Shown here one piece after another: positions 1,632 to 53,137 of a DNA stretch of 64,000 bases. Below the pieces are notes generated by a model, which did no database searches, had not been told where the DNA came from, and worked only from the letters and a program-made list of their open reading frames with translations. The number at the start of each line of letters is the position of its first letter. The first letter of the stretch is position 1. A program made the position numbers and the translations under genes. The stretch is from Aneurinibacillus soli (GTDB taxonomy: Bacteria > Bacillota > Bacilli > Aneurinibacillales > Aneurinibacillaceae), in assembly GCF_002355375.1 (NCBI RefSeq), contig NZ_AP017312.1, positions 2,497,001 through 2,561,000 of the forward strand, read 5' to 3'.

Positions 1632-2289
1632 GAAAAATAACATAATAAAACCAATTAAACGATTATCCTTTCGAGATGAGGTATACCAAAACTTAAAACA
1701 AGCTATTATTACCTTACAATTACAGCCAGAACAACGTTTACATGACAAGGAGTTAGCTGAACAATTCGGCATTAGTCGTACTCCTGTTAGAGAAGCTCTG
1801 AAGCGATTAGAAGATGAAGGGCTTGTCGAATCCATTCCAGGATCAGCGACTCGGGTAGCGCCATTAAAATTAGAGGAGGCGAGACATGCCGTTACCGTTG
1901 TAGCCGTTCTGCACGCGCTAGCTACCCGCTTAGCCGTTCCGTTACTCGAGCATTCTGATATGGAAGAGTTGGAGTTTAGTACGAAAACGTTACAGCTTTC
2001 AATTGAAAAAAAGGACATTATAAAGGCAATTGAAGCAGATGAAGCTTTTCATAATGTTTTTTTAGATGTAGCGGGAAATCCTGAAATCATACATGCTTTA
2101 GAACGCGTTGTCCCTAAAATTCAACGTCTAGAAATCTCGCAATTTACTTCTATAAAAGGTTTGAAGTCAGTAGAACAACACCAACAGATTATAACCGCCT
2201 GTAAAAATAAGGATTGCGAATTAGCTGCCCGCCTTATCGAAAACAACTGGTTGAGTCTTGGAGAATTACTGACTCTACAAACGGATTGA
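1630..2289 (+). CDS. GntR family transcriptional regulator, FCD subfamily
   Basis: N-terminal winged helix-turn-helix (LRDEVYQNLKQAI-like helix, then ELAEQFGISRTPVREALKRL, the recognition helix) followed by an FCD ligand-binding domain. FCD features seen are an E-A-D-E-A-F-H segment and EQHQQI; the usual third histidine near the C-terminus is not obvious. An in-frame ATG also exists at 1612; 1630 is chosen because the protein aligns from MKNN. Neither start has a clear ribosome site, so translation could be leaderless. The next gene starts within about 11 bases of the stop, so the exporter is its likely target. Confidence 0.85.
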   Translation: MKNNIIKPIKRLSFRDEVYQNLKQAIITLQLQPEQRLHDKELAEQFGISRTPVREALKRLEDEGLVESIPGSATRVAPLKLEEARHAVTVVAVLHALATRLAVPLLEHSDMEELEFSTKTLQLSIEKKDIIKAIEADEAFHNVFLDVAGNPEIIHALERVVPKIQRLEISQFTSIKGLKSVEQHQQIITACKNKDCELAARLIENNWLSLGELLTLQTD

Positions 2290-2299
2290 GGTGAGGCTA

Positions 2300-3277
2300 T
2301 TGAAACCGATCTTTCTAGGGATTTGTGCTGCGTTCTTCTTTGCTTTTACATTCATTCTTAATCGGACAATGGAATTGTCAGGTGGAAGCTGGATATGGAG
2401 TGCTTCGTTACGTTATATCTTTATGGTTCCTTTTCTATTACTCATTGTGATAGCGAGAAAAAATCTTCAGCCCCTCTTAACAGCCATGAGAAAACAAATA
2501 GGAATGTGGATGGTATGGAGTTTTGTAGGCTTTGGATTATTTTATGCGCCTTTATGCTTTGCTGCTGCTTATTCGCCGGGCTGGCTCATTGCCGGAACGT
2601 GGCAGATTACGATTATTTCCGGCTCTTTACTTGCTCCACTTTTTTCAAGAACGATCGAGACAGCGACCGGATTGGTAAAAGTAAGAGGGAAAATACCTTT
2701 TATGAGTGTACTGATGTCACTGCCCATTCTAGTAGGCATTATTTTAATGCAGATGGAGCAGGCAACCGATATCCCTCTACAAGATTTACTAGTAGGTATA
2801 CTAGCTGTATTAATTGCTTCATTTGCGTATCCATTGGGGAATCGTAAAATGATGGACATATGCGGAGAGCGTTTAGATGCTTATCAACGTGTATTAGGGA
2901 TGACCTTGGCCAGTTTGCCATTCTGGTTTTTTCTTTCGCTGTATGGGATTTACACTGTCGGCATGCCAAGTCAAGAACAAGTGGTTCAATCAGCCCTGGT
3001 TGCTGTGTTTTCAGGAGTAATCGCCACCGTTTTGTTTTTTACGGCAACCGATATGGTGAGAGGAAACATGCAGAAGCTCGCTTCCGTGGAAGCAACTCAA
3101 TCCATGGAGGTAATTTTTGCATTATTAGGAGAATTGCTATTTTTATCAACTGCGATTCCATCTCCACTATCGTGGGGAGGGATCGGCATTGTAATTGTTG
3201 GAATGATTTTTCATAGTTACGTTTCGCATAAATACGTTCCTAGCTTACCAGCCACAAGCTCCAACATGAAAATGTAA
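2300..3277 (+). CDS. DMT-superfamily (EmrE-like) multidrug exporter
   Basis: About ten hydrophobic segments and the overall form of the multidrug resistance efflux transporter branch of the drug/metabolite transporter superfamily. Small-residue-rich first helix with FNR-like ILNRTME. The frame allows a GTG start at 2291, but TTG at 2300 sits eight bases after GAGG, so 2300 is preferred. It is translationally close to the GntR gene and probably co-transcribed. Substrate unknown. Confidence 0.8.
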   Translation: MKPIFLGICAAFFFAFTFILNRTMELSGGSWIWSASLRYIFMVPFLLLIVIARKNLQPLLTAMRKQIGMWMVWSFVGFGLFYAPLCFAAAYSPGWLIAGTWQITIISGSLLAPLFSRTIETATGLVKVRGKIPFMSVLMSLPILVGIILMQMEQATDIPLQDLLVGILAVLIASFAYPLGNRKMMDICGERLDAYQRVLGMTLASLPFWFFLSLYGIYTVGMPSQEQVVQSALVAVFSGVIATVLFFTATDMVRGNMQKLASVEATQSMEVIFALLGELLFLSTAIPSPLSWGGIGIVIVGMIFHSYVSHKYVPSLPATSSNMKM

Positions 3278-3286
3278 GTTGCAATT

Positions 3287-3326
3287 ATGTAGTTACGAAC
3301 CACGTTGACATTCAAGAGGTCACGTC
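3287..3326. repeat. Repeat similar to the sequence after the resolvase remnant at 36.28 kb
   Basis: ATGTAGTTACGAACC, then CGTTGACAT and GAGGTC, occur here and again at 36281-36321 with small differences and the same order and spacing. In the second copy the repeat starts with the stop codon of a serine-recombinase tail, so this copy may mark another transposon scar. Confidence 0.5.
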
Positions 3327-3377
3327 ACGAAAAGGAAAAATCGTACGCTAACGGGCAGGTACGGTAGTTGAACGAAC

Positions 3378-3417
3378 CAAGGAGCAGCTTACCAGTGGTA
3401 GCTGCTCCTTGATTTTA
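3378..3417 (+). terminator. Rho-independent terminator
   Basis: AAGGAGCAGCT pairs with AGCTGCTCCTT, followed by a T-rich tail. It closes the GntR-exporter unit. Confidence 0.8.
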
Positions 3418-3522
3418 TTAAAACAATGATAGGTTACTGAATACCCGTTCTACTTCTAATCAGCAAACTCCCTAAAACGGTCTTTTTGAGGAATCAAAAA
3501 ATGGAGAGTTTCTGTACATTAT

Positions 3523-3600
3523 AACAATCAAACGAACATTTGATTGTTAACAACACAAAGTATATAATAACATTCAAACAAACATTTTAGTGTTTGAGTG
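3523..3600 (+). promoter_or_regulatory. cadCA promoter with two CadC-type operators
   Basis: Two imperfect palindromes flank a promoter. The first, 3523-3548, is AACAATCAAA-n6-TTTGATTGTT; its TCAAACGAACATTTGA core resembles the known CadC operator of staphylococcal cad. The second is TTCAAACA...TGTTTGAG in 3573-3598. Between them are TTGATT at 3540-3545 and TATAAT at 3563-3568, spaced 17 bases. Repressor at either palindrome would block this promoter. Confidence 0.75.
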
Positions 3601-3610
3601 AGGTGGAAAA

Positions 3611-3982
3611 ATGGAGAAGGTAAGAAAAGAGGATAGCTGTGAAGTTTATTGTTTTGATGAAGAGAAAGTGAACCGCGTAAAACAACAGATAGAGGAACAT
3701 GAAACGTTAGATATCGTCAAAGTATTTAAGGCATTAGCTGATGATACAAGGCTAAAAGTCGCGTATGCATTATGCCAAGAAGAAGAGCTATGTGTTTGTG
3801 ACGTTTCCAACATTATCGGTTCTTCAACAGCCACAGCTTCCCATCATCTTCGGTTGCTTCGAAATATGGGATTAGCTACCTATCGTAAAGAAGGGAAGCT
3901 AGTGTTTTATTCATTGCATGATGAACATCTTAAACAATTAATTACGCTTGCTTTCGCTCAACGAAAGGAGATTACTTTGTAA
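3611..3982 (+). CDS. cadC: CadC-type ArsR/SmtB metal-sensing repressor
   Basis: 123 residues with the CadC layout: an N-terminal extension with cysteines (SCEVYC), the [12 protein letters not shown] motif carrying the C-x-C metal site, the winged-helix [16 protein letters not shown] and the wing [12 protein letters not shown]. In the family, Cd(II), Pb(II) or Zn(II) binding releases the operator. GAGGTGG precedes the ATG. Its stop overlaps the cadA start by one base, and the promoter has matching palindromes, so it represses its own operon. Confidence 0.93.
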
Positions 3983-6090
3983 TGGAAAAAAGTGTTTATC
4001 GGGTGCAGGGATTTACCTGCACGAACTGCGCGGCACTCTTTGAGCAAAATGTAAAAGCATTACCTGGCGTAAAAGATGCAAAAGTAAACTTTGGTGCTGC
4101 CAAGGTTTCTGTTGAAGGCGAAGCGACTCTTGAAGAGTTGGAAAAAGCCGGTGCATTCGAGAATCTGCGACTATTTCCTGAAAAACAACGGATCGTTGCT
4201 AAAAAAGAGTCTTTTTGGAAAAACCAAACGAATGTCCGCGCTGTAATTTCGGCTGTATTATTGGTAGTCGCCTGGCTTATCAGTAAGCAATACGGCGAGA
4301 ACCATGGACTCCCCGTTTCACTATATGCTGTTTCTATTCTCATTGGAGGATTCTCTCTTTTTGTAAAAGGATTTAAAAATCTTGTTGCTTTACGCTTTGA
4401 TATGAACACTCTTATGACCATAGCGATTCTTGGCGCAGCCATTATCGGTCAGTGGGAAGAAGGTGCGATGGTTGTATTCTTATTTGCGATTAGTGAAGCA
4501 CTAGAAAGATACTCCATGGAAAAGGCACGTCAATCGATTAGCTCTCTGATGGACATTGCACCAAAAGAAGCAACTGTTCGTAGGAATGGAGAGGAAATTC
4601 AGATTCCTGTTGATGACATTCAAATTGGAGATATCATGATTGTAAAGCCAGGACAAAAACTGGCCATGGACGGTGAAGTTATTAAAGGTACATCATCTCT
4701 TAATCAGGCCGCTATCACTGGAGAATCGATTCCTGTAACAAAATCGGTTGGAGACGAAGTATTCGCTGGTACCCTTAATGAAGAGGGATTACTTGAAGTT
4801 AAAGTAACAAAAACGGTTGAAGATACTACCATTGCAAAAATCATTCATCTTGTAGAAGAAGCGCAAGCAGAGCGTGCGCCATCTCAGGCGTTTGTAGAAC
4901 GATTTGCTAAATACTATACACCGGCTATTATGGCACTTGCTTTAGGTGTTGCTGTTATACCTCCCCTTTTCTTTGGGGGTGAATGGAGCAAATGGATATA
5001 TGAAGGATTGGCCACTCTAGTTGTCGGTTGCCCATGTGCGCTTGTCGTCTCTACGCCAGTTGCTATTGTTACAGCTATTGGGAATGCAGCTCGTAACGGT
5101 GTGTTAATTAAAGGAGGCATCCATTTAGAGGAAGCTGGCTCATTGTCTGTGATTGCTTTTGATAAAACAGGTACATTGACTCGTGGTATTCCTGTCGTAA
5201 CCGATCTGATTGCTTTGCAAAGTCAATCACCAAATGAAGGCTTAGCGATTGCAGCATCCTTGGAAAAAGGATCTCAGCATCCTCTAGCCTCTGCTATTGT
5301 ACGAAAAGCAGAAGAGGAAAAGCTTTCTTTACACGATGTAGATGGCTTTTCCTCTATTACAGGTAAAGGGGTAAAAGCAACCGTAATCGGCAACGAATAT
5401 TACATCGGTAGTCCTCGCTTATTCGAAGAACTTTTGTCAGTTGACCGAATGAAGGATATTCAATCACAAATTGAAAGACTTCAGCATGAAGGTAAAACAG
5501 TGATGGTTCTTGGTACAAATGAACAAGCGATGACCCTGATTGCTGTAGCTGATGAAGTTCGAGAAAGTAGCAAGAATGCCATTCAAAAACTTCATTCGAT
5601 GGGTATTAAGAAAACCATCATGTTAACCGGTGACAATAAAGCTACGGCTCATGCAATCGGAGAAAAATTAGGGATCACGGATGTAAAAGGTGAGCTGTTA
5701 CCGCAAGAAAAACTAGAAGCTATTAAGCAGCTCAAGTCATCCAATCAACATGTAGGGATGGTCGGTGATGGAGTCAATGACGCTCCTGCGCTTGCTACGG
5801 CGACTGTAGGGATTGCTATGGGAGGTGCCGGGACAGATACAGCTTTAGAAACGGCTGATATTGCTCTTATGGGTGATGATTTAGGGAAACTTCCTTTCAC
5901 GATTAAATTGAGCCGAAAAACGTTACAGATTATTAAACAAAACATTACATTCTCCTTAGCGATTAAGCTTGTTGCACTCCTTCTCGTGGTTCCAGGGTGG
6001 CTAACACTATGGATTGCCATCTTTGCAGACATGGGAGCTACACTTATTGTGACGTTAAATGGGTTGCGACTATTACGGGTTAGAGAATAG
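3982..6090 (+). CDS. cadA: Cd/Zn/Pb-exporting P1B-type ATPase
   Basis: 702 residues. An N-terminal HMA domain carries CTNC at residues 13-16; then transmembrane pairs, the actuator loop with ITGES, the CPC transport motif at 350-352, phosphorylation motif DKTGTLT from residue 394, an HP motif in GSQHPLA, and GDGVND before the last membrane segments. CPC plus adjacency to cadC indicates export of soft divalent ions rather than copper alone. Complete and apparently functional. Confidence 0.93.
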
Positions 6091-16227: not shown

Positions 16228-16280
16228 TCATTTTTTGTCGAACGTTATAGGCATATAGAGTAGTAGCTACATAAAAAGAG

Positions 16281-16348
16281 GTAACGAACAGTTACAAATA
16301 GGTTATAAAAATATATAAATATGTATCACTATTTTATAACTTGTAACT
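16281..16348. promoter_or_regulatory. Inverted repeats in the upstream region of the hydratase gene
   Basis: GTAAC-n5-GTTAC (16281-16295), and AGTTACAA...GTTATAAAA (16290-16310) mirrored by TTTTATAACTTGTAACT (16332-16348). This lies on the 5' side of the IStron and probably belonged to the promoter-operator region of the downstream acyl-CoA gene before insertion. Confidence 0.4.
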
Positions 16349-16368
16349 CAATTGACAGCCTCCTACGT

Positions 16369-16745
16369 TCGTAAAGAGCGTAGAGTGATGGATACATTCC
16401 ATCCAAAATCCTTTGAATTGCTGGAAGTCCCTAAAGCCAATTCAACCACAACGTAATGATGAAACAAGCATAAGCGTGATGGTTACGAAAGTAGAAAAAA
16501 TGAATGGGATGGTGCATGGTTAAATCCTAAACACTGGTACAATGGGTAATCAGCAGCGAAGCCTCGAATAGAGGAATGTTCAACGACTAGGCGAAAGCCG
16601 TACACTACAAGCGATGGGTAGTGGAAGTGGAGGACACCGATTCGGTGATGATATAGTCTGCGCTGTATGGTGACATGCAGAAGTTCATAAGAGAACTGCA
16701 TCGGTCTAGCGAACGGATGTGAACACGCATAAAACTTATAAAAAG
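16369..16745 (+). ncRNA. Group I self-splicing intron, catalytic core
   Basis: Helices readable by eye: P1, CTACGT (16363-16368, 5' exon) with GCGTAG (16378-16383), giving the expected U-G wobble at the 5' splice site; P2, GATGGA/TCCATC (16387-16403); P4, GCTG (16420-16423) with CAGC (16551-16554) inside GGGTAATCAGCAGCGAAGCC; P6a, CCTC/GAGG; P7, GACTA (16585-16589) with TAGTC (16654-16658); an extra GGC-GAAA-GCC hairpin after the first P7 strand as in IA-type introns; P8, CACCGATTCGGTG; and a P9-type hairpin near 16675-16700. GATATAGTCTG is the diagnostic group I sequence. Confidence 0.88.
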
Positions 16746-16767
16746 TTGCATATGCACAAAAAAACAC

Positions 16768-16926
16768 TCATTTAGCATGAGTGCTGGATGCGAAGTCTTT
16801 GAGAATCGTAATAACTAAGTTGTTAAAACTTCTGTTTTGATCTTTCGCGATTTGTTCAAGTTGGACTTTTAATTCTTTTGGGATGGTAATGTTTGTTCTG
16901 GTGTTCAGATCAGATATTTTCCCCAT
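16768..16926 (-). CDS. Small ribbon-helix-helix (Arc-type) protein inside the IStron
   Basis: A 52-residue protein, MGKISDLNTRTNITIPKELK at its start, then a helix LEQIAKDQNRSFNNLVITIL. This is the beta-strand/two-helix layout of MetJ/Arc DNA-binding proteins (strand RTNITIPKEL, helix with NRSFNNLV). GAGGTGATACGA precedes the ATG on the minus strand. It is divergent from tnpB with 92 bases between the starts and lies antisense within the intron. It may control tnpB transcription; function not shown. Confidence 0.75.
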   Translation of the reverse strand: MGKISDLNTRTNITIPKELKVQLEQIAKDQNRSFNNLVITILKDFASSTHAK

Positions 16927-17018
16927 TCGTATCACCTCAAACTTATACTAACATCTAAATTCAACGCTCACAAGTTGGTATCAATTTGGTATGATTAGTG
17001 TGTAGGAGGTGAGATGTG

Positions 17019-18158
17019 ATGATAAAAGCCATAAAAATTAGATTGAAGCCAACTAAAGAACAGGAAGTTTTGATGTTTAAATCGGCAGGTATAGCAAGAT
17101 TCGCTTATAACTGGGGCTTAGCTAAACAAGAGGAGAATTATCGAAAAGGTATCAAGTCTTCTATAAAAGATAGTAGAAAAGAGTTTAACCAACTAAAGAA
17201 AACAGATGAATACAAATGGCTAAACGAAGTTTCTGCTCAAGTATCACAACAAGCATTTGAAGACTTGAAGGCGGCCTATAAAAAATTCTTTGATAAAAAT
17301 GGTGGCAAGCCAAAGTTTAAAAGCAAAAAGCGAGATCAGCCTAAATTCTACGCCAGATATGATGCGATTAAGTTTACAAAAAACAACGGTCTATTTTATG
17401 TTCAAATTGAAAAGATAGGTAAAATCCAGTACAAATCAAATTATGATATTCCACAACTAGCTAAGTATATAAATCCAAGAGTGTCATTTGACGGGAAGTA
17501 CTGGTATTTGAGTCTAGGGTTTGAACATGGAACAAACAAAAGCAAGCTCGATAACGTATCAGTCGGTATAGATTTGGGAATCAAGGACTTGGCAACTGTA
17601 TCTCATATAGACAAGCCGATTAAAAATATTAACAAAACAGCAAAAGTTAGAAAGATCAAAAAGAAGTTGAAACGATTACAAAGAAAAGTATCACGAAAAT
17701 ACGAGAAGAACAAAGATGGCAACAAGTACAATAAGACGAAGAATATCAGTAAGCTGGAGAGGGAAATTAAATTGGTTCATAGGAGACTAATCAATATCCG
17801 GCTTAACCATATTCACCAGGCGACGAACTTGATTGTGAAAACCAAACCGTCAAGAGTCGTTATGGAGTATTTAAACATACAGGGTATGATGAAGAATAAA
17901 CATGTATCTAAAGCGATACAAGAACAAAAACTATATGAATTCAAAAGACAAATGAAATACAAATGTGAGTTCAATGGGATTGATTTTGTAGAAGCGGATA
18001 AATGGTATCCATCATCTAAAATGTGTTCGTGTTGTGGAATTGTTAAGAAAGATTTAAAACTTTCAGATCGGACATATGTATGTGATAAATGCGGTCTTAT
18101 TGAAGATCGAGATAAAAATGCCTCGATTAACCTTGCCAACTATCAAGTGGCGAATTAA
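17019..18158 (+). CDS. tnpB: TnpB RNA-guided nuclease of the IStron
   Basis: 379 residues. N-terminal OrfB helix-turn-helix segment, then a RuvC-like nuclease with all three acidic sites: D in VGIDLGIKDLA, E in VVMEYLNIQGM and D in EDRDKNASINL. Between the last two sits a four-cysteine zinc finger, CSCCG and CDKCG. AGGAGGTG is eight bases before the ATG; a GTG lies one codon upstream. In the family TnpB cuts DNA next to a short target-adjacent motif using an RNA from the element's right end. It appears intact, with AT-rich codon use unlike the flanking genes. Confidence 0.92.
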   Translation: MIKAIKIRLKPTKEQEVLMFKSAGIARFAYNWGLAKQEENYRKGIKSSIKDSRKEFNQLKKTDEYKWLNEVSAQVSQQAFEDLKAAYKKFFDKNGGKPKFKSKKRDQPKFYARYDAIKFTKNNGLFYVQIEKIGKIQYKSNYDIPQLAKYINPRVSFDGKYWYLSLGFEHGTNKSKLDNVSVGIDLGIKDLATVSHIDKPIKNINKTAKVRKIKKKLKRLQRKVSRKYEKNKDGNKYNKTKNISKLEREIKLVHRRLINIRLNHIHQATNLIVKTKPSRVVMEYLNIQGMMKNKHVSKAIQEQKLYEFKRQMKYKCEFNGIDFVEADKWYPSSKMCSCCGIVKKDLKLSDRTYVCDKCGLIEDRDKNASINLANYQVAN

Positions 18159-18345
18159 CACGTAAACGTTACCGCTACTATGTACCATGCGTTGTATGGG
18201 AATTTACGCCCTCGGAGAGTCATATCAAACATGAGTAGTTCTAGCAATAGAACAAAAATGGATTCGATGAACAGGGAATTAAAATAAAACTTCTTGTATG
18301 TAAAAAGTTTGTGTGTTTATGGCTTTTTATAAGTTTTATGCAACG
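18159..18345 (+). ncRNA. Putative omega RNA (guide RNA scaffold) and right end
   Basis: About 185 structured bases between the tnpB stop and the intron 3' end. In TnpB systems the guide scaffold is taken from this place and its guide continues into flanking DNA, here starting near GGAGGGTTTTT. Hairpin potential is visible (for example AAACTT/AAGTTT around 18289-18310), but no scaffold consensus was tested. Confidence 0.5.
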
Positions 18346-18357
18346 GAGGGTTTTTGA

Positions 18358-19452
18358 GTGGAGAATACACAGCAACAAGACGTGTTATTCAATGTTGAGA
18401 ACGGGGTTGGCCGCATTGTGTTAAACCGTCCGAAAGCGCTGAACGCGCTATCGGTTACGATGGTTGATGAGATCGGCAAACAGCTGTCCGCATGGGAAAA
18501 TGACGCGCAGGTGACCGTTGTAACCGTAGAAGGCGCGGGAGAAAAAGGATTGTGTGCGGGCGGAGACATGCGCTCGTTTTATGATAAGAAAGACGACAAT
18601 GTAGAAGAGCATGCGGTAAACTTCTTCGGCATTGAATACCGCATGAACTTGCAGATGTACCGCTATCCAAAACCAATCGTAGCGTATATGAACGGCATCG
18701 TTATGGGCGGGGGCGTTGGCATTTCGATTTTTGCAGCAGAACGTATTGTGACTGAGCGCTCAAAATTATCCATGCCGGAAATGAACATCGGTTTCTTCCC
18801 GGATGTCGGCGGTAGCTACTTCATGAATCAAATGCCGGGCCATATGGGGCGTTATTTGGCTTTGACAGCTCACTTATTTAATGGAGCAGATGCGATCTAC
18901 CTCGGCGCAGCCGACCATTACATCGAAAGCACAAGCTGGGATGCACTGAAAGCAGATATTGTGGCACGCGATTGGACACAGAAAGCAGATGCAGCCGAAG
19001 AACTTCGCATGCTCCTGCAAAAATACGCAGTCACGGCTCCTGCATCTTCTCTAGCAGCTGTTCAGGAGAAAGTAGATGCACACTTTGCACATGAATCGGT
19101 CGTAGATATTCTTGCATCACTTGATCGCGCAGCACAGGAAGGCGACGAATGGGCGCAGCAGACAGCTACTACCTTGCGTACGAAGTCTCCCATCTCGATG
19201 GCCGTAGCACTTGAGCAGCTTATACGTGGCAAACAGATGAGTGCAGCGGATTGCTTCTGCATGGAGATGGATATGAGCATGCATTTCATGCACAGCCACG
19301 ATTTCTATGAAGGCGTGCGTTCTGTACTCGTCGATAAAGACCGCAATCCAAAATGGAATCCGGCAACAGTAGAAGAGGTAGGGCGAGAGGATGTAGAAGC
19401 GTTCTTCGTCAGCCCGTGGGCAAAAGAAGACCATCCGCTGGCAAACGAATAA
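18358..19452 (+). CDS. Enoyl-CoA hydratase/isomerase family, 3-hydroxyisobutyryl-CoA hydrolase-like
   Basis: 364 residues, longer than ordinary crotonases (about 260) and typical of 3-hydroxyisobutyryl-CoA hydrolases of valine breakdown. Motifs: GLCAGGDMRSFY (oxyanion loop), NGIVMGGGVGIS (second oxyanion glycine), MPEMNIGFFPDVGGSY with the conserved E and D. Start GTG with CGGAGGG seven bases upstream. The IStron is inserted directly upstream of this ribosome site, so transcripts from the normal promoter carry the intron. Confidence 0.85.
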   Translation: MENTQQQDVLFNVENGVGRIVLNRPKALNALSVTMVDEIGKQLSAWENDAQVTVVTVEGAGEKGLCAGGDMRSFYDKKDDNVEEHAVNFFGIEYRMNLQMYRYPKPIVAYMNGIVMGGGVGISIFAAERIVTERSKLSMPEMNIGFFPDVGGSYFMNQMPGHMGRYLALTAHLFNGADAIYLGAADHYIESTSWDALKADIVARDWTQKADAAEELRMLLQKYAVTAPASSLAAVQEKVDAHFAHESVVDILASLDRAAQEGDEWAQQTATTLRTKSPISMAVALEQLIRGKQMSAADCFCMEMDMSMHFMHSHDFYEGVRSVLVDKDRNPKWNPATVEEVGREDVEAFFVSPWAKEDHPLANE

Positions 19453-52939: not shown

Positions 52940-53110
52940 TATAATGTCCTCGTTAGGTGAGGTTCCTATACAAACACAGGCCACTGCCGAGAAACATCGA
53001 AAGATGCCAATCGGTAGAGCAGGGATCGTCGGATTAAGGCGTTCTTTAAGGTGGCTGAGAACCAATTTTCTCTACGTTGTATAGTGCCAAAGCTTTACTA
53101 GGGGGAGCAA
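52940..53110 (+). ncRNA. M-box (ykoK) magnesium riboswitch
   Basis: After a TATAAT at 52940-52945 come the conserved M-box stretches: CTCGTTAGGTGAGG, TCCTATACAAACACAGGCCA, CTGCCGAGAAACATCGAAAG, ATGCCAATCGG, then a TTAAGGC near 53036. High Mg2+ favours termination. The hairpins at 53114-53129 and 53138-53168 form the expression platform. Confidence 0.9.
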
Positions 53111-53137
53111 CAATACCTATATGTATTGTTATTCGTG

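Follow-up and report, generated by a model that had tools for sequence, protein, structure and literature searches.

The 64,000-nucleotide stretch of the Aneurinibacillus soli genome analyzed here (contig NZ_AP017312.1, positions 2,497,001 to 2,561,000; hereafter, the window, whose coordinates are used throughout, with features on the forward strand unless stated otherwise) contains an IStron, that is, a group I intron fused to an insertion sequence (IS) that encodes TnpB. The 2065 bp element, TAACGAACAG...TTTTATGCAACGG, occupies positions 16282–18346, in the leader of a gene of the 3-hydroxyisobutyryl-CoA hydrolase family (18358–19452; match to NF004127 with 454 bits, against a cut-off of 274). 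From left to right, it encompasses the catalytic core of the intron, a small gene on the reverse strand that encodes a ribbon-helix-helix (RHH) protein, tnpB, and a predicted omega (guide) RNA of the RAGATH-18 family. All results described below are computational. A preliminary description of the same DNA had proposed an IStron in the leader of an acyl-CoA gene, and this location is borne out, as is the identity of the element, by the presence of an intron core, an intact TnpB and an omega RNA within one element; that description mentions neither the RHH gene and the accompanying operator-like repeat nor the RAGATH-18 RNA.

The ends of the element follow from an empty site combined with the ends shared by its relatives. 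In a congeneric genome (G006, locus L004), the hydrolase gene is 91% identical to the one in the window, and its leader lacks the element. The window flanks joined at 16281 and 18347 align with this leader with a score of 126, compared with 45 when the element is started at 16369, as in the preliminary description, much of this gap being accounted for by 87 extra bases. Because the two leaders have diverged, this first related genome alone left the left end unfixed, and the exact base rests mainly on the ends shared with nine relatives, namely, six clostridial elements (L020, L021, L022, L023, L066 and L099), L019 from Caryophanon tenue, a species of Bacilli, and two elements in viral contigs (L136 and L138). 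The left end GG|TAAC, which settled the question, is common to all 10 elements including the one in the window, and the right end CAACGG is found in all 9 elements with a sequenced right end, again including the one in the window (L138 runs off its contig). The element, therefore, starts at T16282, and the right end at about 18346 stands as originally described. In the window, the boundaries read AAAGAGG|TAAC...CAACGG|AGGG, with no target duplication, and the insertion point lies after GAGG, inside the Shine-Dalgarno-like GAGGAGGG of the hydrolase gene. This 5' exon end (16278–16281; GAGG in 8 and GGGG in 2 of the 10 elements) is the insertion target, the exon side of the P1 helix and the predicted transposon-adjacent motif (TAM) of TnpB, the last role being assigned by analogy with IS607 TnpBs (PMC11061315, cited here from excerpts). 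The 3' exon starts at 18347, and positions 18347–18366 are the predicted guide of the omega RNA, of approximately 16–20 nt (20 are listed here), as suggested by the anatomy of IS607 TnpBs, the guide of which is 20 nt long (PMC11061315). The window element is the sole full copy in its genome.

The group I catalytic core (16359–16680) was detected by a covariance search of the whole window that also yielded the RAGATH-18 match; the search with RF00028, which had been proposed as a check in the preliminary description, gave a match over the full model length with 86.6 bits, against a gathering score of 50 (E-value 1.1e-20). In the predicted fold of positions 16270–16400 (z-score -4.81, equaled by 0 of 200 shuffles), P1 consists of positions 16278–16282 paired with 16358–16362, over an AT-rich P1 extension hairpin (16283–16357; z-score -4.81) that is also the left end of the element DNA, and is immediately followed by P2 (16363–16383), which is present in both the RF00028 match and the fold. 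The internal guide sequence GCCUC (16358–16362), thus, pairs with GAGG|U and sits 77 nt downstream of the exon side of P1; this exon pairing is predicted in the minimum free energy fold of 9 of the 10 elements. The helix at 16363–16383, previously read as P1 with the U-G pair at the 5' splice site, is P2, because the exon GAGG|U pairs with GCCUC and P2 follows at once. The predicted P1 fits an oddity of group B IStrons, in which the 5' exon ends in G and the U belongs to the element (PMC4227781, also cited from excerpts). A motif search placed GAACAC after P9.2, at 16721–16726, and this is one of the motifs (GAACGA, GAACAA, GAACAC, GAAUAA or GAAUAU, downstream of P9.2) after which the IS component of IStrons starts (PMC4227781). 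A reading of the palindrome upstream of 16369 as a separate miniature inverted-repeat transposable element was rejected, given that this sequence has one copy in the genome and corresponds to the P1 extension.

The tnpB gene, placed within the same element already in the preliminary description, spans 17016–18158 and encodes 380 amino acids (aa) from GTG 17016 or 379 aa from ATG 17019. The protein contains three Pfam domains above the cut-off (HTH, OrfB and Cas12f1-like TNB), the acidic RuvC residues D/E/D in the motifs GIDLG, VMEYLN and DRDKNA, and a zinc finger, CSCC/CDKC, all aligned to 8iaz, the closest solved chain by sequence (E-value 2.2e-71), which we take to be the ISFba1 TnpB. Downstream of tnpB, positions 18209–18278 match the RAGATH-18 model (RF03064, 68.3 bits against 44.9) and are the predicted core of the omega RNA; RAGATH-18 is also found downstream of tnpB in all 20 loci scanned, out of 81 related TnpB loci, and RNAs derived from RAGATH-18 serve IS607 TnpBs as guides (PMC11061315). 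There is no tnpA among the open reading frames (ORFs) of the element, and none of the 9 matches to NF033518 (IS607 serine recombinase) in the genome exceeds the cut-off. The only one of the nine that was inspected individually, L142 (68.5 bits against 110), was rejected as a tnpA located elsewhere in the genome: by eye, it is a resolvase-like frame of 218 aa near a LexA-like gene.

Between the intron and tnpB, antisense in the element and divergent from tnpB, lies the gene for an RHH (Arc/CopG-like) protein of 52 aa (16768–16926, reverse strand). The protein matches Pfam RHH_5 with 27.1 bits (cut-off 26) and PHROG 582, an Arc-like repressor family, and has no NCBIfam match. Its structural model (predicted local distance difference test, 89.3) has helices at residues 17–29 and 34–51, with the strand not formed in the monomer, and the top Foldseek matches include AmrZ, CopG, Arc and CdbA, with E-values of 0.036 and weaker. 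Over the first 49 codons, the proportions of synonymous and nonsynonymous differences (pS and pN) are 0.85 and 0.07, respectively, against an intron-less viral relative (L153), and 0.85 and 0.15 against L136, and this low pN versus high pS indicates that the gene is under purifying selection. The gene ends in a terminator-like hairpin (16763–16785, reverse strand), the single one found by a consensus scan of the region, where 1.4 are expected by chance; by eye, a similar hairpin is present at the same place in L136 and L153. In front of tnpB, the promoter-like site CTCACA-17-TATGAT (16967–16995; 9/12) is weak on its own because such sites are not above chance in the region (5 found, 7.6 expected). 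Its spacer contains an operator-like direct repeat, TGGTATCAATTTGGTA (16976–16991), identified by a pattern search: this is the single match to the pattern TGRTATCANYWWGRTA in the window (0.02 expected), and there is none at the element ends. By eye, L136 has a TTGACA/TATAAT promoter whose 17-bp spacer is likewise occupied by a similar repeat. The RHH protein, thus, probably represses tnpB via this putative operator.

The repeat accompanies the RHH gene beyond this element. Among TnpB loci from genomes, the gene is present in 2 of the 77 tested (L019 and L047), and the repeat in exactly these two; among viral TnpB loci, all 5 of the 17 with the gene have the repeat, and the other 12 yield a single match (L200). 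For the combined 94 TnpB loci, of which L197 and L198 are near-duplicates and L192 is the contig of L136, the repeat is found in 7 of 7 loci with the RHH gene versus 1 of 87 without it. A stricter pattern occurs near tnpB in 3 of 87 loci (L019, L047 and L136), all with the gene, along with one distant match in L093. A scan of viral contigs for the RHH family gave 24 loci, of which 20 have a nuclease-type neighbor, tnpB in 9 and a homing-endonuclease-like gene in 11, whereas the other 4 have neither (L161, L166, L173 and L174). An endonuclease or NUMOD neighbor exceeds the Pfam cut-off in 8 of these 11 (L156, L157, L158, L159, L162, L164, L170 and L171), where L157 and L158 carry the same neighbor, tested on the L157 copy, and the frame in L162 seems to be broken. 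The remaining three, L172, L175 and L176, were assigned to this class by eye. The motif as first defined is present in 18 of 31 RHH loci (1.3 in shuffles), and the relaxed motif in 24 of 31 (0.87 in shuffles). In annotated records, 2 of 4 RHH matches lie beside an HNH gene.

The 3' part of the element appears to be capable of two mutually exclusive pairings. The exact 19-bp inverted repeat 16727–16745/18323–18341, noted in the preliminary description, is confirmed, and a repeat search with duplex prediction shows that it belongs to longer, 34-nt arms, 16727–16760 (5') and 18308–18341 (3'), which are 79% complementary and form a predicted duplex of 33 pairs with -35.4 kcal/mol. The share of AU among the exact pairs, 15 of 19 (79%), is slightly below the >80% given in a survey of IStrons (PMC4227781). 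The 3' arm would be common to the splicing and guide RNA structures: in the 9 elements whose sequence includes the 3' end, it can pair at long range with the 5' arm (28–41 pairs, -23.7 to -41.7 kcal/mol) or, alternatively, with a nearby second copy of that arm, a direct repeat situated just upstream (18284–18295 in the window, read from the sequence and by pairing analysis). Across the nine sequences, 95.2% of 126 cells are paired in the long-range helix, with 3 pairs changed on both sides, and 93.5% of 108 cells in the local helix, with 2 such pairs, compared with 24–62% of cells in slid registers. The paired percentage is reached by 0 of 500 shuffles for the long-range helix and by 13 of 500 for the local helix, and swaps of whole arms between elements reach the paired cells in 7 and 59 of 2000 cases, respectively. 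The comparison, then, supports compensatory changes in both pairings of the 3' arm; the two pairings as such have already been noted for group B IStrons (PMC4227781).

Taken together, the anatomy and the ends of the element, the support for the two pairings, the low pN of the RHH gene and the association of this gene with the repeat are best explained, with a probability of about 0.8, by a scheme in which the IStron splices, TnpB cuts empty sites, the RHH protein represses tnpB and the 3' arm acts as a switch. Under this scheme, the group I ribozyme would cut after G16281 and join the upstream exon to A18347, so that the hydrolase mRNA would regain the Shine-Dalgarno sequence present at the empty site, with the predicted spliced junction AAAAAGAGG^AGGGTTTTTG. 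TnpB with the RAGATH-18 RNA, its guide starting at 18347, would cleave those copies of the site that lack the element, adjacent to GAGG, and this single tetranucleotide should be read by three activities: insertion, splicing and guided cutting. The RHH protein would bind TGGTATCAATTTGGTA between the -35 and -10 elements of the tnpB promoter and, thereby, repress tnpB. At the 3' arm, the long-range stem would bring the 3' splice site to the ribozyme, or the local stem would form at the end of the guide RNA; the two stems being alternatives, each transcript should serve one function only. We infer that the pairing of the 3' arm selects either splicing or guide RNA, which would agree with the conflict between the two reportedly described by Zedaveinyte in 2024. 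The division of labor suggested in the preliminary description, with splicing to repair the host RNA and TnpB to guard the DNA copy, is also plausible.

Several observations weigh against this scheme. Exon P1 is missing from the fold of L022 and is weak in L023 (probability 0.36–0.43), and the RF00028 gathering score is reached in 1 of the 20 related loci scanned (L066), the introns of the other relatives having been recognized by nucleotide similarity or, in the case of L019, by motifs and ends. For the long-range helix, 67 of 500 shuffles attain the observed number of pairs with changes on both sides, as do 13 of 500 for the local helix, and whole-arm swaps attain the number of columns with such changes in 236 and 241 of 2000 cases, respectively; furthermore, the helix registers were set by hand from the folds, given the poor automatic alignment of the direct repeat, so that the pair counts lean towards the chosen registers. 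The RHH model has no Foldseek match with E ≤ 0.001. The relaxed operator pattern that underlies both the 24 of 31 and the 7 of 7 versus 1 of 87 was chosen after inspection of the loci; with this pattern, 7 of the 31 RHH loci lack the repeat, in L192 it is first met in a shifted register, and several of the viral loci are duplicates or nearly so (L157/L158, L168/L169 and L173/L174). Two of the 4 RHH matches in annotated records have no adjoining nuclease, and in a sample of 398 genomes from the phylum, 4 (A. soli included) have an RHH match, with TnpB matches absent from the loci of the 3 besides A. soli. With one of these three loci as the query, the search found 6 near-identical viral relatives that count as support rather than as a negative control because all 6 adjoin an IS605-like TnpB, each with the repeat; the other control query gave no relatives, and the RHH-nuclease neighborhood is left without a proper negative control.

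Two alternatives concern the role of the RHH protein. The first is that the element is an ordinary group B IStron whose RHH gene came from a phage as a passenger and takes no part in the regulation of tnpB, as would befit the presence of this gene in 2 of 77 testable genome TnpB loci and its survival as remnants alone in clostridial IStrons (L099 and, weakly, L023, E-value 0.0064) and as relics alone at two other TnpB loci of the same genome. Set against the 7 of 7 versus 1 of 87 distribution of the repeat, the low pN versus high pS and the identical divergent arrangement in many loci, this appears unlikely. Some RHH proteins serve as accessory DNA-binding proteins or as antitoxins, and the one encoded here might bind the transposon ends or TnpB, as a partner in transposition or an antitoxin-like partner, rather than act on transcription. 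The absence of tnpA agrees with such a role, as does the sole PDB sequence match, the antitoxin EndoAI, which is not significant (E-value 0.073). This option is, nonetheless, highly improbable, considering that the family also adjoins HNH and GIY-YIG genes, which have neither the transposon ends nor the fold of TnpB, that the repeat at those loci is mostly in the promoter region, and that the strict repeat has one match in the window, away from the element ends.

Other alternatives bear on the element as a whole. It could be a dead copy whose ribozyme no longer splices and which is being lost: there is a single full copy and no tnpA above the cut-off in the genome, and the right junction recreates CGGAGGG, so that the host gene may not need splicing. 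The full-length match to the core, the intact frame and motifs of TnpB, and the intact RHH gene with its low pN render this unlikely. Placing the 5' splice site at 16368|16369 and the element at 16369–18345, as in the preliminary description, is hardly tenable: the Rfam model does set the first helix there, but all 10 elements share the left end GG|TAAC, which lies about 88 bp to the left of that position, the G006 leader lacks the element, and the exon pairing is present in the fold.

We lean slightly towards the broader proposition that a widespread family of small RHH proteins represents dedicated repressors of selfish nucleases, such that a module consisting of the repressor and its operator would have been exchanged among TnpBs, both in intron-less elements and in IStrons, and phage HNH and GIY-YIG homing endonucleases; in the window IStron, this module would superimpose transcriptional control on the alternative of splicing or guide RNA. 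To our knowledge, how selfish nucleases, TnpB and homing endonucleases among them, are kept from harming their hosts is largely an open question. A portable repressor with a recognizable operator, if real, would answer it in a testable form and might also provide a control switch for compact TnpB systems.

Within the known diversity, the element is a group B (IS607-type) IStron without its own transposase, an assignment that follows from the GG target, the CGG terminus and the long AU-rich repeat. The features of this group present in the window include a group I intron, GAACAC after P9.2, a target ending in GG, the CGG end, and an inverted repeat together with a direct repeat; in group B, the inverted repeat is 15–34 bp long and encloses the ORF region, its 3' arm lying next to a direct repeat, and the intron belongs to class IA2 (PMC4227781), the RF00028 match of the window intron covering the group I level. 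ORF A of group B is missing from the element, and the survey lists members without it (PMC4227781). Group B IStrons as such, their Bacilli hosts and the missing ORF A are, therefore, already known. The preliminary remarks that IStrons come mainly from clostridia and that a tnpA-free copy is notable are both weak: the 2014 survey lists BcISt1 from the Bacillus cereus group and LsISt1 from Lysinibacillus, there is a relative in Caryophanon tenue, and ORF A is frameshifted, truncated or missing in many IStron copies (PMC4227781).

The closest known systems, group B IStrons (BcISt1, LsISt1, SrISt1, CbISt1-4 and CsISt1; Tourasse 2014, PMC4227781), likewise combine a group I intron with an IS607-type IS component and share with the window element the target ending in GG, the CGG end, the GAAC motif after P9.2, the frequent loss of ORF A, and the long AU-rich inverted repeat, whose 3' arm is adjoined by a direct repeat. 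The window element differs in the antisense RHH gene and the operator-like repeat, which are unmentioned in the excerpts of this survey, and, apparently, in the position of the internal guide, which a long hairpin separates from the splice site by 77 nt. The IS607 TnpB of ISFba1 (PMC11061315) is similar in having a RAGATH-18 RNA downstream of tnpB and an AG-rich motif at the left end, which reads AGGAG or GAGGG in that paper compared to GAGG in the window; unlike it, the window TnpB is encoded inside a predicted self-splicing intron, together with an RHH gene. With the Arc/CopG-type repressors (PHROG 582, RHH_5), the RHH protein shares the size, the predicted fold and two half-sites 11 bp apart in a promoter, whereas its family travels with selfish nucleases (TnpB, HNH, GIY-YIG). 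CvkR, the repressor of a CRISPR-associated transposon (PMC9938897, from excerpts), is another case of a transposon with an RNA-guided system that encodes its own repressor; CvkR is of the MerR type, and both the protein and the element are unrelated to those in the window. Among the literature matches listed, mostly open-access, there is no report of an RHH repressor linked to TnpB, IStrons or homing endonucleases, an absence that falls short of proof because these matches are the starts of abstracts and subscription papers are mostly outside their scope.

An intron-less sibling of the window element, L153 (IMGVR_UViG_2872351278_000001, positions 2944–4575 of the reverse complement; 1632 bp), reads GGAGG|TAATTAACTG...ATGTAACGG, with matching ends and no intron; its RHH protein is 92% identical and its TnpB 50% identical to those in the window. 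This sibling bears on the gain or loss of the intron by IStrons. By eye, a repeat of the AAGTTATAA type occurs on both sides of the intron in L136 and once in L153, and the difference between these two would be explained either by intron gain with a duplicated end or by loss via recombination between the repeats. Across the 9 elements with both flanks, joining these flanks yields an open reading frame across the junction in 5 (L021, L022, L066, L099 and L136), and 3 of 9 are located, by eye, at Shine-Dalgarno-like sequences (the window element, L020 before csrA, and L023 before an ABC-transporter gene). The L019 element (2250–4341) follows the Shine-Dalgarno-like AGGGGG of what we take to be the programmed frameshift site of prfB, so that splicing should be needed there for release factor 2. 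At the DNA level, the intron has matches in 39 of 398 genomes of the class (own included, E ≤ 0.001), many of them short and confined to core segments, and in 2 of 398 genomes of the phylum (own included, E ≤ 1e-12); few genomes from these samples were examined further.

Additional loci related to parts of the element were also encountered. Distant RHH relatives adjoin IS605-like TnpBs in the viral contigs L184–L189, with the repeat TGATATCACTATGATA, which differs by one base in L187. In the A. soli genome itself, two further TnpB loci with RAGATH-18 (C1:3841785-3843146 and C1:728553-729914) carry RHH relics that overlap the start of tnpB and fall below the Pfam cut-off. The viral contig L155 (IMGVR_UViG_3300017917_002918, reverse complement), which was left out of the element comparisons, has an intron match with 72% identity over 339 nt, an RHH protein with 72% and a TnpB with 51% identity, and is perhaps a further IStron with other ends. 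Group I intron matches beside TnpB genes 32% identical to that of the window are present in L108 and L140/L141, possibly IStrons of another type. The second intron-like match in the same genome, locus L002 (C1:1927291-1927389 with flanks), was rejected as an IStron: by eye, it is another, independent group I intron that contains a GIY-YIG-like frame and lies inside a ribonucleotide-reductase-like gene. Elsewhere in the window, positions 52942–53112 match the M-box (magnesium) riboswitch with 150.9 bits.

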